Shown: piece by piece, positions 3,044-44,088 of the stretch | How positions within the stretch are numbered: position 1 is the first letter of the stretch | Layout: every line of letters begins with the position of its first letter | Origin: an uncultured Bacilli bacterium | GTDB taxonomy: Bacteria > Bacillota_I > Bacilli_A > RF39 > UBA660 | Length of the DNA: 44,426 nucleotides | Direction: 5' to 3' | Assembly (NCBI GenBank): GCA_905235065.1 | Contig: CAJOJR010000004.1 | Location: 1 to 44,426 of the forward strand | Position numbers and translations under genes: made by a program | Notes under the pieces: model-generated | Seen by the model: only the letters and a program-made list of their open reading frames with translations | Databases searched by the model: none | Told to the model about the DNA's origin: nothing

Positions 3044-3742
3044 ATGTTAGTATACGGTAAAAATGTATTAAGAGAATTATTAAATAGTAACATTATAATT
3101 AATAAAGTAATTTTATCTGATAATTTTAATGATAAAGAATTAATAAATTTAATTAGTAAAAAGAAACTAAATCTATTATATGATAGAAAAAATAAATTAG
3201 ATAAGTTATGTAATAATAATTCTCAAGGTGTAATTATTGATATAAAAGATGATTTTTATATTGATTTAAAAGAAATATTAAATGATAAAAATGCTGATTT
3301 TATCGTTATACTTGATCATATAGAAGATCCTCATAATTTTGGAGCAATAATAAGAACTAGTGAATGTGCTGGAGTAAATTACATAATAATTCCTAACAAA
3401 GGAAGTGTTGAGGTGAATTCAACAGTTATGAAAACATCAGCCGGAGCTCTTACAAATACGAAAATATGTGTAGTTGCTAATCTAAATAATACAATAGAAA
3501 TGTTAAAGAAGAATGATTATTGGGTAGTTGGAACAGATGCGAATGGAGAAAATTATACTAAAATTAATTATGAAGGTAAAGTTGCTTTAGTAATCGGAAG
3601 CGAAGGCTATGGACTTAAAGAAATGATTAGAAGAAATTGTGACTTTATAGCTTCAATTCCAATGAAAGGCAAAGTTAATAGTTTAAATGCTTCTGTTGCA
3701 GCTGGTATTGTGATATACGAAGTAATGAAAACAAGGAAGTAA
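3044..3742 (+). CDS. rlmB: 23S rRNA 2'-O-ribose methyltransferase of the RlmB/TrmH family
   Basis: SPOUT-class methyltransferase that in characterised homologues 2'-O-methylates a guanosine of 23S rRNA (G2251 in E. coli numbering). 232 residues. An N-terminal substrate-binding domain (about 1-75) precedes the catalytic domain with the three SpoU motifs: DPHNFGAIIRTSECAG, then VIGSEGYGL, then MKGKVNSLNASVAAGI, which form the knotted SAM pocket. The ATG follows GGAGG. Only 3 bases separate it from the sigma factor gene downstream; rlmB close to sigH is also the Bacillus arrangement, which supports both calls. Confidence 0.92.
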   Translation: MLVYGKNVLRELLNSNIIINKVILSDNFNDKELINLISKKKLNLLYDRKNKLDKLCNNNSQGVIIDIKDDFYIDLKEILNDKNADFIVILDHIEDPHNFGAIIRTSECAGVNYIIIPNKGSVEVNSTVMKTSAGALTNTKICVVANLNNTIEMLKKNDYWVVGTDANGENYTKINYEGKVALVIGSEGYGLKEMIRRNCDFIASIPMKGKVNSLNASVAAGIVIYEVMKTRK

Positions 3743-39461: not shown

Positions 39462-39470
39462 ACTTTACTG

Positions 39471-39556
39471 CCCGCATGGCGGAATTGGTAGACGCACTGG
39501 ACTCAAAATCCAGCGGTAGCAATATCATGAGAGTTCGAGTCTCTCTGCGGGCACCA
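39471..39556 (+). tRNA. tRNA-Leu (anticodon CAA)
   Basis: 86 bases with encoded CCA. Acceptor GCCCGCA / TGCGGGC perfect; anticodon arm CTGGA / TCCAG with loop CTCAAAA (CAA); a long variable arm, as in class II tRNAs. Confidence 0.95.
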
Positions 39557-39569
39557 GATTGATAGGAAA

Positions 39570-39588
39570 CTCGGACAACTTATCCGAG
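39570..39588 (+). other. First hairpin of a tandem pair after tRNA-Leu
   Basis: CTCGGA / TCCGAG with a 7-base loop, no T-run. The second hairpin with a T-run follows 12 bases later. tRNA-His has the same arrangement. Confidence 0.6.
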
Positions 39589-39600
39589 ATGCAATAAACG

Positions 39601-39627
39601 AACTAACTAGAAATAGTTGGTTTTTTT
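39601..39627 (+). terminator. Terminator after tRNA-Leu
   Basis: AACTAACT / AGTTGGTT with one G-T pair, loop AGAAAT, followed by T residues. Confidence 0.8.
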
Positions 39628-39654
39628 GTGTTTCAGAAAGGATAAGTGATAAAT

Positions 39655-39927
39655 ATGTTTAAAGAAGAAACTAAAGAACTAAAAATGAGTAATGAATTTA
39701 GAAAGAAAATTGAAATGATATGTAAGTTTGCTTGTGTTAAATATGAATTAATAAATGGTAATATTCTTTCAATTAAAAATACTAATTTAGCCTATGTCAG
39801 ACCACATATATTAAAAGTTAAAGGAAATGACTACTTGCTATTTGAAAATTCAAATATAGTTTTTATAAATGGATATAAAGATAAAATAATGCTAATTGAA
39901 CTAGAAAAACATCTTAAAAATAGCTAA
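39655..39927 (+). CDS. Small hypothetical protein
   Basis: 90 residues, not recognised. N-terminal half is charged and helical (MFKEETKELKMSNEFRKKIEM); two Cys lie in MICKFACVKYEL; the second half looks beta (NYLLFENSNIVFINGYKDK-like pattern). AAAGGA lies 12 bases before ATG 39655 and 3 before an in-frame GTG at 39646, so the start is uncertain. It lies between tRNA-Leu and the recombinase and may be part of that element or not. Confidence 0.5.
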   Translation: MFKEETKELKMSNEFRKKIEMICKFACVKYELINGNILSIKNTNLAYVRPHILKVKGNDYLLFENSNIVFINGYKDKIMLIELEKHLKNS

Positions 39928-39931
39928 TATC

Positions 39932-39959
39932 TTGATTTTTCAGTAAAAAAGTATATAAT
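39932..39959 (+). promoter_or_regulatory. Promoter of a short transcript before the recombinase
   Basis: -35 TTGATT (39932-39937), 16-base spacer, -10 TATAAT (39954-39959). Confidence 0.55.
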
Positions 39960-40012
39960 AAATAACCAATAAATGACAAGCAGTATCGTCTTTATTAGAA
40001 AGTAGGTACACT

Positions 40013-40105
40013 ATGGTCAAACAAATATTTATAATAAATTATAATTTTGAGGTTACTGAGAGTAAAAGATATAATCTAATTAGTATTTTTTACTCTCTTT
40101 TTTGA
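40013..40105 (+). CDS. Possible 30-residue small protein
   Basis: ATG with AGGT 6 bases upstream reading MVKQIFIINYNFEVTESK and on to a stop inside the T-run of a strong terminator. The transcript from the promoter at 39932 to the terminator at 40103 would be about 140 bases. It may be a leader peptide, a small protein or a non-coding RNA; the coding evidence is only the start signal. Confidence 0.3.
   Translation: MVKQIFIINYNFEVTESKRYNLISIFYSLF
40058..40103 (+). terminator. Terminator of the short transcript
   Basis: Arms GAGAGTAAAA / TTTTACTCTC with a 20-base loop, then T residues; 21 bases before the recombinase start. Confidence 0.8.
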
Positions 40106-40123
40106 TAGAAAGAAGGGATTTAA

Positions 40124-42004
<1,881 letters not shown>

Positions 42005-42319
42005 TCAACCATAATTTCAACCATGATAATTCCTTATAAAATAAGCATCTATAGTAATATATCGACCATAATTATGGTTTGATTTTGCAAGTGCAAAATA
42101 AGTTTGTCCCTATTAAATGCCTAGATTTTATCTAGGTTTTAATAGTTTAAAGGGACAATCTCTTATGCTCTTATTATTTTTAATGCTAAAAATAATGAAA
42201 TTATGGTCGAGATTCAACCAATTTCAACCAAGATTTTGGGTTACAAATAAAAGTTATGTAAAATTATTTAAAAAAACAATAATTTATGGTATAATATATA
42301 CCAACAAGGGAGGTTTAAT
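42005..42319 (+). repeat. Palindrome-rich stretch after the recombinase gene
   Basis: No convincing gene. It holds a perfect 14-base palindrome ACCATAATTATGGT (42065-42078); a 12-base inverted repeat TCGACCATAATT (42062-42073) / AATTATGGTCGA (42199-42210); further AACCAT(A/G)AT copies at 42007 and 42019; a 16-base palindrome TTTTGCA-AG-TGCAAAA (42083-42098); and a long interrupted hairpin (42103-42158; arms TTGTCCC / GGGACAA, then TATTAA / TTAATA, then CCTAGAT / ATCTAGG). Such clusters suit recombinase or regulator binding or att sites. Confidence 0.75.
42287..42295 (+). promoter_or_regulatory. Extended -10 promoter for the gene at 42320
   Basis: TGGTATAAT 24 bases before the ATG. Confidence 0.65.
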
Positions 42320-42694
42320 ATGATTAATAGTAGAGATTCATATACTAATTTCAATCCTAATAAGAAAAAAAGTATTGATGTTCCATATGAAATTGGAACA
42401 ATTGTCGAATTAAAAGATAATCCAGATGTTTTAGCAAGAATAATCCAGTATAGGATTACCGTTGAGCATCTTAGACAAGTAATTAATGTTGGTTTAAATA
42501 CTAATATATATGAAAACGAAGATAAAATTGATTGTGAAATAACTGTAGAAGAATTAGAAGAAAAATGGAAAAAACCGGATAGAATTATCGTTGGAAAATT
42601 AGATCCTGAAACTTTTCTTCGAATTCCAGGTTTTTCTGAACACTTTGAAAGAGAAAAAAAATTAGAATTGACTGGAAAAAGAAAAAATAAGTAG
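42320..42694 (+). CDS. Unrecognised 124-residue protein near the recombinase
   Basis: Strong promoter and GGGAGG site, so the gene is very likely expressed. Soluble, no signal or helix. N-terminus polar (INSRDSYTNFNPNKKK), a middle section VPYEIGTIVELKDNPDVLARII that looks beta, an acidic helix (EITVEELEEKWKKPDR) and a basic C-terminus (KLELTGKRKNK). Flanked by two copies of the TTTTGCA-NN-TGCAAAA palindrome. Function unknown; likely accessory cargo of the element. Confidence 0.7.
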   Translation: MINSRDSYTNFNPNKKKSIDVPYEIGTIVELKDNPDVLARIIQYRITVEHLRQVINVGLNTNIYENEDKIDCEITVEELEEKWKKPDRIIVGKLDPETFLRIPGFSEHFEREKKLELTGKRKNK

Positions 42695-42699
42695 TAATT

Positions 42700-42730
42700 A
42701 TAAGTTGGAGCATTCTAACTTATTTTTTTA
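42700..42730 (+). terminator. Terminator after the gene at 42320
   Basis: ATAAGTT / AACTTAT with a 10-base loop, then T residues. Confidence 0.8.
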
Positions 42731-43036
42731 TCCATGATGTGGACACTCACTATCCACAAAATTGGTTATTTTTATTGAAAATTTTGCAAGAGCATAAGAA
42801 AATGATATCAACACACTAATTAAAGCTAGGTAATACCATGTTTTTGTTTGATATCAAACTTATTTTGCACATGCAAAATTATCCCACAGTTGTGGGACAT
42901 GATTCTTGCTTTCCCTTTATTTTAAAGTGATATTTGTGGGATTACTTGGGGATTATGTATGGATATGCTCGTGGATAGTGGGATATATAATCCCATTTAC
43001 ATTTTTCAATATTCTTGTTTCAAAACTAGGGAAATA
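42731..43036 (+). repeat. Second palindrome-rich stretch without a convincing gene
   Basis: Contains a 10-base inverted repeat CACTATCCAC (42748-42757) / GTGGATAGTG (42971-42980); TGATATCA (42803-42810); a perfect 14-base palindrome centred on GATATC (42846-42859); TTTTGCA-CA-TGCAAAA (42863-42878); and TCCCACA-GT-TGTGGGA (42882-42897). A weak open frame from 42906 crosses the repeats and the putative RNA gene and is not credible. Confidence 0.7.
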
Positions 43037-43045
43037 TGCTATAAT
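43037..43045 (+). promoter_or_regulatory. Extended -10 promoter of a putative RNA
   Basis: TGCTATAAT, with GTTTCA 17 bases upstream as a poor -35. Confidence 0.55.
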
Positions 43046-43051
43046 GATATC

Positions 43052-43158
43052 AGTTAGTGAGTATATTGCTTACTATCACTTTTGCTATTGGGTTATTCGA
43101 CCTCAACCCCAACGGCACCATATTGATATAAACAAACATTTTGGTTTGTTTTTTTATT
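43052..43158 (+). ncRNA. Putative small structured RNA
   Basis: Between the promoter above and a strong terminator (AAACAAAC / GTTTGTTT at 43130-43151, then T). Inside: a hairpin GTGA-GTA / TAC-TA-TCAC (about 43058-43083), a stem TTGGGTT / AACCCCAA (about 43087-43112), then a GC-richer single-stranded part CGGCACCA. No RNA family is recognised. The local base composition is less AT-rich than its surroundings. No ribosome site or coding frame is convincing. Confidence 0.45.
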
Positions 43159-43204: not shown

Positions 43205-43633
43205 ATGAGCGAAAATATAAATGCTTTAGATGAAATACATAAGGGTGCGTGCATGGGATGTGATGCTATCAGCTTTGTTTTAGAAAAGGTAGAGGATGAA
43301 ACTTTTAAAAGTGAACTTGAAAGTGAATTTAATTTTTATAAGTCTATTGAAACTAAAATAGATAAAATTTATTCAAAATATGATGATGGTGAGCCTCATG
43401 AAACAGGTATCATGAATAAAGCTATGACTTGGTCAGGAATTGAAATGAAAACAATGAATGACCATAGTAATTCAAAAATAGCTGAACTATTACTTCAAGG
43501 CGTTAATATGGGTATAATTGAAGGAAGAAGAATTCTTAACAAAAAGAAAATAAATAATGAAGTAAGCAAAATAGTTTCAGAGTATGTTGAAACACAAGAA
43601 AAATTTATGGAAACATTAAAAAGTTACTTATAA
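43205..43633 (+). CDS. Ferritin-like helical protein, DUF2383-like
   Basis: 142 residues, all-helical. MSENINALDEIHKGACMGCDAISFVLEKV and MTWSGIEMKTMNDHSNSKIAELLLQGVNMGIIEGRR recall DUF2383 (a ferritin-like four-helix bundle of unknown role, seen in spore-forming and other bacteria). It has few conserved His/Glu pairs, so metal binding is uncertain. ATG 43205 follows GGAGGA; the in-frame ATG at 43193 precedes that site. Followed by a strong terminator. Confidence 0.6.
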   Translation: MSENINALDEIHKGACMGCDAISFVLEKVEDETFKSELESEFNFYKSIETKIDKIYSKYDDGEPHETGIMNKAMTWSGIEMKTMNDHSNSKIAELLLQGVNMGIIEGRRILNKKKINNEVSKIVSEYVETQEKFMETLKSYL

Positions 43634-43698: not shown

Positions 43699-44088
43699 AT
43701 GAAAAAAGGTTTTACATTAGTTGAGTTACTAGCGGTTATAGCATTACTTTCAATAATAATTTTAATTGCGGTACCATCTATAACAAAACTAAGACAAAGC
43801 GCTGTTGAAAAAGAAAGAGAGAATCAAATAAAAGAAATAGAATCTGCTGCAGTGTTTTATGTTCAAGATGAAATCATAGAAATATCTGAAGACACAACTA
43901 TAAGCGTAACAGTAAAAATGCTGATTGATACCGGTTACGTAAAAGCAAATGTTGAAAGTGGAAAAACCAACTGTAGCTCTGATAATAGCAATGGTTGCTT
44001 GTTTGATTTGAATGGAAATAATTTAAATAGCAAAGAAGTAAAAATATCAAAGATTAATAATAAATTGGTGGCAAAATATCAAGAATAG
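43699..44088 (+). CDS. Prepilin-like protein
   Basis: 129 residues. Class III signal KKG then FTLVELLAVIALLSIIILIA with Glu at +5, expected to be cut by a prepilin peptidase after Gly. The ectodomain has IESAAVFYV, a VTVKMLIDTGYVK strand and two Cys (NCSSDNSNGC) around a short loop. AGGTGA precedes the ATG. Same module as the 9318 gene; no pilus machinery nearby. Confidence 0.87.
   Translation: MKKGFTLVELLAVIALLSIIILIAVPSITKLRQSAVEKERENQIKEIESAAVFYVQDEIIEISEDTTISVTVKMLIDTGYVKANVESGKTNCSSDNSNGCLFDLNGNNLNSKEVKISKINNKLVAKYQE

Follow-up and report, generated by a model that had tools for sequence, protein, structure and literature searches.

The question raised by this locus was whether a short segment, 43037-43158, in the DNA of an uncultured Bacilli bacterium gives rise to a new small RNA. 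The window analysed here is the whole stretch of 44,426 nucleotides. A preliminary description had proposed a single unit of about 105 bases, possibly part of a neighbouring mobile element, in which an extended -10 promoter, a structured body with stems and an intrinsic terminator enclose no credible reading frame. Much of this was borne out. The extended -10 box, TGCTATAAT, is present at 43037-43045 and is conserved among 26 aligned right ends of related elements, the body folds better than its shuffled versions (z -3.0 for 43052-43120 and z -3.3 for the whole segment), and no Rfam family reached its gathering score in 43037-43158, in line with the supposed dissimilarity to known RNAs. A coding sequence was rejected, since the lengths of the gaps separating related copies are not divisible by three and would break a frame. 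At 43130-43155 there is likewise a hairpin followed by a run of T; the terminator scan did not list it, presumably because its stem has only two G-C pairs. What did not hold is the unity of the proposed RNA, as the body belongs to the element and the terminator to the host.

Borders and layout of the element

An exact search with a 27-base piece of the body matched two metagenome-assembled genomes, L040 and L041. In the alignments, similarity to the window stopped at 43121 (L040) and 43124 (L041), right after ..GGCACCA, and the downstream flanks of the two loci were unrelated to each other and to the window. The core GGCACCA is shared by both ends of the element, at 39550-39556 and 43114-43120. 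The insertion point lies directly 3' of the CCA of tRNA-Leu(CAA), and the tRNA gene stays whole in the window as well as in L040 and L041, where the targets are tRNA-Leu(CAA) and tRNA-Arg(CCT), respectively. These borders define a serine-recombinase element of 3.56 kb (39557-43120), of which 43037-43120 form the right end, and the suspected membership of a mobile element was thereby confirmed. The features are as follows, all on the forward strand.

39470-39556, +, tRNA-Leu(CAA), the insertion target, 3' end ..GGGCACCA (ARAGORN)
39557-43120, +, whole mobile element (similarity to L040 and L041 ends there)
39557-39590, +, left attachment arm GATTGATAGGAAACTCG.., conserved at left ends; putatively forming a dyad with the right arm's TTCGA motif
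39591-39608, +, left strand of the predicted antiterminator, GCAATAAACGAACTAACT, complementary to 43052-43069
39600-39627, +, left-end intrinsic terminator, GAACTAACTA-GAAA-TAGTTGGTTT with T-run (folding; P(terminator) 0.993 for the left leader alone)
39646-39927, +, ORF1, about 90 aa, first gene after the left terminator (unmatched in Pfam and PHROG)
39932-39959, +, possible own promoter of the recombinase, TTGATT-16-TATAAT (spotted by eye, without a scan)
40013-40103, +, region just 5' of the recombinase with a short leader frame (40013-40105) and, at 40058-40103, a second terminator-like hairpin
40124-42004, +, large serine recombinase, 626 aa (Pfam Resolvase, Recombinase and Zn_ribbon_recom; phrog_95 integrase)
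42320-42694, +, ORF2, 124 aa (no family match)
43037-43045, +, extended -10 box TGCTATAAT, conserved with fixed spacing; transcript expected from 43052, a putative start
43052-43069, +, AGTTAGTGAGTATATTGC, opening of the leader and right strand of the predicted antiterminator (complementarity to the left end)
43090-43120, +, right attachment arm, T-arm-like, end ..CGGCACCA (alignment of right ends)
43130-43155, +, terminator in host DNA beyond the element, probably that of tRNA-Leu in displaced position (similarity border, folding, terminators of relatives)

With its resolvase, recombinase and zinc-ribbon domains the recombinase is a large serine recombinase, while searches of Pfam and PHROG gave no match for ORF1 and no family match for ORF2. 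A palindrome, ATTTTGCANNTGCAAAAT, is found at 42082-42099 and 42862-42879 in this element and again (L042, about 3305-3322) in the element of the related genome G001, whose recombinase is 47% identical; it is a candidate regulator or replication site.

The DNA 3' of 43120 is, judging from these borders, host DNA. A search for relatives of the whole segment gave short partial matches in 7 of 97 other genomes, comprising eight loci. Six of these were inspected (L002, L003, L004, L006, L007 and L009), and each had a terminator-like sequence; in two, L002 (tRNA-Glu) and L006 (tRNA-Leu), the 3' end of a tRNA called by ARAGORN precedes it, so that an intact tRNA gene, a short gap and a similar terminator follow each other as at 43116-43155. 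L003 resembles this arrangement, yet ARAGORN calls no tRNA there. The hairpin at 43130-43155 is thus most likely the displaced terminator of tRNA-Leu itself. No empty copy of the window's own insertion site was found; the arrangement fits displacement. The host gene at 43208-43633 is retained in G001, behind another serine-recombinase element at the same place, and as the G001 contig begins inside that element its tRNA is out of view. The protein of this gene matches DUF2383 in Pfam below threshold (E 0.059), and 43 of 98 genomes, its own among them, encode relatives. Further on, 43699-44088 encodes a pilin-like protein with a prepilin methylation motif, shortly 5' of tRNA-His.

From the borders, the host DNA after 43120 and the terminators of relatives, the apparent small RNA is therefore the right end of the element joined to a host terminator. 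A stand-alone small RNA would carry its own conserved terminator; here the terminator lies outside the element and differs between copies. The pairing of GATATCA with TGATAT in the fold of the whole segment connects element DNA with host DNA, and we consider it accidental for that reason. In the integrated state a transcript of about 105 nt, from 43052 to about 43155, is expected, probably as a by-product, and the conserved unit consists of promoter, leader and attachment arm. A tRNA-like role of the T-arm-like stem was also considered and rejected, since an attachment arm mimicking the tRNA target seems to fit better. The guide-type function which had been suggested was discarded. Bridge and seek RNAs, as defined in the part of the source available, belong to elements with a DEDD transposase of the IS110/IS1111 families, and the present element has a serine recombinase. 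In phages and plasmids, one 25-base chance match each was all that was found for the segment, and an exact 23-mer of the body gave no match in the viral contigs searched.

Anatomy, complementarity and predicted refolding of the ends

The 26 aligned right ends were found by DNA similarity and by profile, leaving aside L041 (its right end is that of L040), L112 (a duplicate), a second match in L082 and weak profile matches. In this set there is no variation in the first T of TGCTATAAT, in T and A of the -10 box or in the AGTTA that follows, and the G of TG in the extended -10 is conserved in at least 90%, with L091 lacking the TG. The six-base spacing from the -10 hexamer to AGTTAG is kept in right ends of the AGTTAG type (read by eye for the second end in L094, for L100 and for L111, where the automatic register was off). 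The conserved -10 box is oriented so as to read across attP into the first genes of an excised circle, with a putative RNA start at 43052.

Every left end carries a terminator 3' of its attachment arm (39600-39627 in the window). The right leader is complementary to a stretch of the left end that includes the 5' arm of the terminator. The two strands are 3.5 kb apart in the integrated element, while in a circle the left end lies directly downstream of the right end. The preliminary suggestion of an antisense RNA was thus correct in that the leader is complementary to the left-end terminator, but the complementarity would most simply act in cis, on the transcript of the circle. Right ends were picked regardless of complementarity for 17 paired elements, taken from 22 sets of recombinase and right end (L104, L105, L110 and L111 are without a left end, and L112 is a duplicate). 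Duplexes between an element's own ends ranged from -14.5 to -22.5 kcal/mol (mean -17.8), as compared to averages of -15.3 kcal/mol for swapped ends and -6.2 kcal/mol for shuffled leaders; the permutation p of 5e-5 ignores relatedness. Some swapped pairs of the AGTTAG type exceed the own pairs, e.g., the right end of the window gives about -22.5 with the left end of L091 or L099 and -17.3 with its own. The fit is therefore not tuned to the last base, and our confidence in the switch proposed below is slightly lowered for the same reason. In a set of 37 elements, 20 of them picked by complementarity and the subfamilies sorted by left-end motif, the own partner beat every partner from another subfamily in all 37 (mean -17.2 versus -5.5). 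The leader sequence differs between subfamilies, each matching its own left end. All these loci are related, so the counts are not independent.

Folding of the left leaders alone gave P(terminator) of 0.92-0.999 in the 17 elements. In the RNA of the circle it fell below 0.5 in 15 of 17, staying high in L094 and L098, while with shuffled leaders in front it averaged 0.96; when the RNA was begun at the A of AGTTAG, the terminator was again displaced in 15 of 17. In a snapshot taken before the 3' arm of the terminator, P(antiterminator) was about 1.0 in 17 of 17, as against an average of 0.24 with shuffled leaders. For 20 resolved loci of divergent subfamilies, the circle RNA lost the terminator at equilibrium in 12 and the terminator won in 8; before the 3' arm the antiterminator was dominant in all 20 (0.76-1.0, a snapshot run without a shuffled control). 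As the terminator wins at equilibrium in L094, L098 and these 8 divergent elements, they would rely on the co-transcriptional order of folding. The window's own left leader has P(terminator) 0.993 when folded alone, compared with 0.32-0.41 in the circle, where the two states are nearly balanced; the transcript from +1 still includes the terminator in its optimal structure.

A family of elements behind tRNA and tmRNA genes

In the bacterial family, 142 of 372 genomes (counting that of the window) have recombinase matches at E <= 1e-60. Of the 30 loci fetched, 20 contain a tRNA or tmRNA gene, and 30 of another 38 have one no more than 1.3 kb upstream of the recombinase. Where they could be read, left ends directly follow the CCA. 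The targets include Leu, Arg, Thr, Met, Gly, His, Cys and Phe tRNAs as well as tmRNA. Four left ends (L061, L062, L068 and L069) follow a CACCA-ended stretch resembling the right end of another element, and elements thus seem to pile up in tandem. The right-end flanks in L094 (behind 6157), L102 and L111 open with another shared pattern, GAATCTGTTCGAACTATTCGAAC and variants, which probably marks the left ends of yet another kind of element lying in tandem. Integrative mobilizable elements with serine recombinases are described, in the part of the review available, as integrating within genes (PMC5704250), and docking behind many tRNA genes is unusual by that measure.

With a profile of the right ends the module was found behind the recombinase in many elements. 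A model built on right-end sequence only gave matches in 26 of 395 genomes of the class, its filters losing weak matches; 23 of these genomes belong to the same family (the window's own included), and three weak ones lie outside. The base before CCA at the right end is often that of the target tRNA, A in the window and T in L085, L089 and L108, with one exception, L088 (CCCCA at the left, CTCCA at the right). This base may set which tRNAs a recombinase can use.

Divergent subfamilies, with recombinases 44-54% identical to that of the window and left terminators of other sequence, allowed right ends to be predicted from left ends. The first locus tried was L115, where the best site differed at one position from the predicted 15-base right leader (the next best at three) and lay behind a -10 box and before ..GCTCCA. 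The systematic run took 22 bases at the left terminator and sought their best complement within up to 12 kb, beginning 1.5 kb past the first base of the recombinase. It started from 30 loci with a usable left end, i.e., the 38 minus 8 without an upstream tRNA, and scored the 23 with at least 5 kb to search; L121, L123, L127, L129, L130, L143 and L144 had less than 5 kb. A site was scored as fitting if it had a -10-like hexamer and the last five bases of the target tRNA at the right distance, a requirement that already includes agreement in the base before CCA. The top site fitted in 17 of 23 loci and one of the top three in 20, compared with 1.3% of random positions. With a stricter signature, CGCNCCA, own queries succeeded in 14 of 23 loci (17 within the top three), queries swapped between subfamilies in 3 of 69 (7 within the top three), and random positions in 0.4%; both signatures were fixed after the output of the systematic search had been seen. 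The prediction failed in L116, L125 and L152, and in L118, L122 and L128 the right end was only second-ranked. The right end predicted for the second element of L113 had no convincing counterpart in the DNA fetched.

A candidate excision-sensing switch

The borders, the conserved anatomy of the ends, their complementarity and the predicted refolding were shown computationally. Our favoured model, which we hold to be quite probable, is a split antiterminator, with one half in the right end, by which transcription of ORF1 and the recombinase would depend on excision. In the integrated state, transcription coming from the tRNA would halt at the left-end terminator, 39600-39627; the tRNA would thereby gain a terminator, and ORF1 and the recombinase would be shielded from outside reading. 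The right-end promoter would meanwhile fire outward and stop at the displaced tRNA terminator, giving the RNA of about 105 nt. In an excised circle the same promoter would sit upstream of the left end, and its RNA would open with AGUUAGUGAGUAUAUUGC, which could pair with GCAAUAAACGAACUAACU before the 3' arm of the terminator exists. With the terminator blocked, the polymerase would read ORF1 and go on to the recombinase, whose expression from the circle would favour re-integration. We infer where the transcript starts, how the polymerase behaves at the terminators in the cell, that a circle forms, and what the element gains.

A second layer of control may lie further downstream. The leader frame of 30 aa and the hairpin with T-run before the recombinase look like a second, possibly translation-coupled attenuator, and 41 of 48 loci (counting one duplicate and two weak cases) have a hairpin of this second kind before the recombinase, such as GAGGTGTCAAAGAC..GTCTTTGTCGCCTC. 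Because the recombinase seems to own the promoter at 39932-39959 and this second hairpin, the split leader may chiefly govern ORF1.

The same features can be explained in other ways. The complementary stretches might act at the level of DNA only, as outer arms of the attachment sites bound by the recombinase or a helper, and the promoter would then read ORF1 in the circle without any antitermination. Sites of serine integrases are dyads, and in Tn4451 a promoter is reportedly joined to the recombinase on the circle; both ends of the present elements carry an inner TTCGA-like dyad, and a dyad in the DNA would likewise give complementary ends. We regard this as unlikely, since the outer repeats lie unequally far from the core (about 67-70 nt at the right versus 48-53 at the left, by eye), begin, in the AGTTAG type, a fixed six bases after the -10 box, overlap in the 37 paired elements with a terminator's 5' arm, and vary in sequence between subfamilies while their complementarity stays.

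An RNA acting in trans, i.e., a stable product of about 105 nt which by pairing antiterminates or degrades the left leader transcribed from the tRNA, or the leaders of other copies, could use the very same complementarity, and a promoter and a terminator are both present in the integrated state. That terminator is, however, host DNA and varies by insertion, so that a defined 3' end is not selected; the location of the leader at +1 suits action in cis, and the left end of another element directly follows some right ends (L086, L105, L110 and L113). Action in trans is accordingly conceivable but improbable. Finally, the right-end promoter faces outward, in elements behind tRNA genes of which some are clustered (L070, L071 and L077), and might serve only to have the host genes past the tRNA transcribed again, in which case the leader would play no part. 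We give this very little credence, as a terminator follows within about 40 nt in the window and several other loci and the complementarity of leader and terminator would be left unexplained.

In trp-type attenuation and other terminator/antiterminator leaders, mutually exclusive hairpins decide on read-through. The switch proposed here would differ from them in that the signal is the topology of DNA, not a ligand or a ribosome, and in that the strands are encoded at opposite ends of an element. TnpX of Tn4451/Tn4453 is a large serine recombinase, with the circle junction reportedly setting a promoter before the recombinase genes, and Tn4451 is not known to target tRNA ends. Compared with that promoter, which is formed by the circle itself, the right end here has an intact -10 box, followed by a terminator switch. 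Among the open-licence literature matches listed, there was no paper on the present element family, and the nearest systems were ICEKp1 and Tn916. State-dependent promoter switching of int is described, in the available part of the source, for ICEKp1 of Klebsiella pneumoniae, and also for ICEclc and ICEEc1; when integrated, int is read from the tRNA promoter through attenuating stem-loops, and when excised from a promoter at the 3' end, a 15-bp sequence of which end relieves the attenuator, pairing with SL3 being an in silico suggestion only (PMC13023037). As far as that text goes, insertion at a tRNA 3' end is common to the two systems; the present element would parallel ICEKp1 further in a tRNA terminator that is probably displaced, a predicted attenuator before the first genes, a putative far-end promoter reading across attP in the circle, and a piece of the far end predicted to relieve the attenuator. 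ICEKp1 is a conjugative element of Gram-negative bacteria, whereas the present one is 3.56 kb long with a serine recombinase and ORF1 and ORF2 without family matches. The integrase of ICEKp1 is presumably a tyrosine integrase, from its class; a tyrosine integrase with conjugative machinery, as in elements of that type, was not found in the window's element. In Tn916, the T1 insulator terminator and the canT antiterminator are described in the available part of the source (PMC11658703). The likeness lies in a terminator near the left end that shields the element and an upstream RNA region that overcomes it in the circle, coupling expression to excision; canT, on the same partial account, acts on several terminators by processive antitermination, while here the leader would pair directly with the 5' arm of one terminator.

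Taken to the bacterial family, it is reasonably likely that a widespread group of serine-recombinase elements uses such a split antiterminator, the folding of which would read DNA topology, with at least three helix sequences in which complementarity is kept and at the CCA ends of many tRNA and tmRNA genes. The pairing in ICEKp1 was suggested once in silico, to judge from the text available; here it is predicted across subfamilies of differing sequence at many tRNA and tmRNA sites, which gives broad comparative support to the kind of pairing that could there be no more than proposed. What looked like an orphan small RNA would become one half of a testable RNA switch, and caution is advised, as other "sRNAs" at the borders of elements may be attachment-site transcripts. 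Serine recombinases whose targets are the conserved 3' ends of numerous tRNA and tmRNA genes are relevant to understanding, and possibly to using, the choice of integration sites. If the proposed switch is true, then together with ICEKp1 it would make excision-sensing leaders a general regulatory principle.
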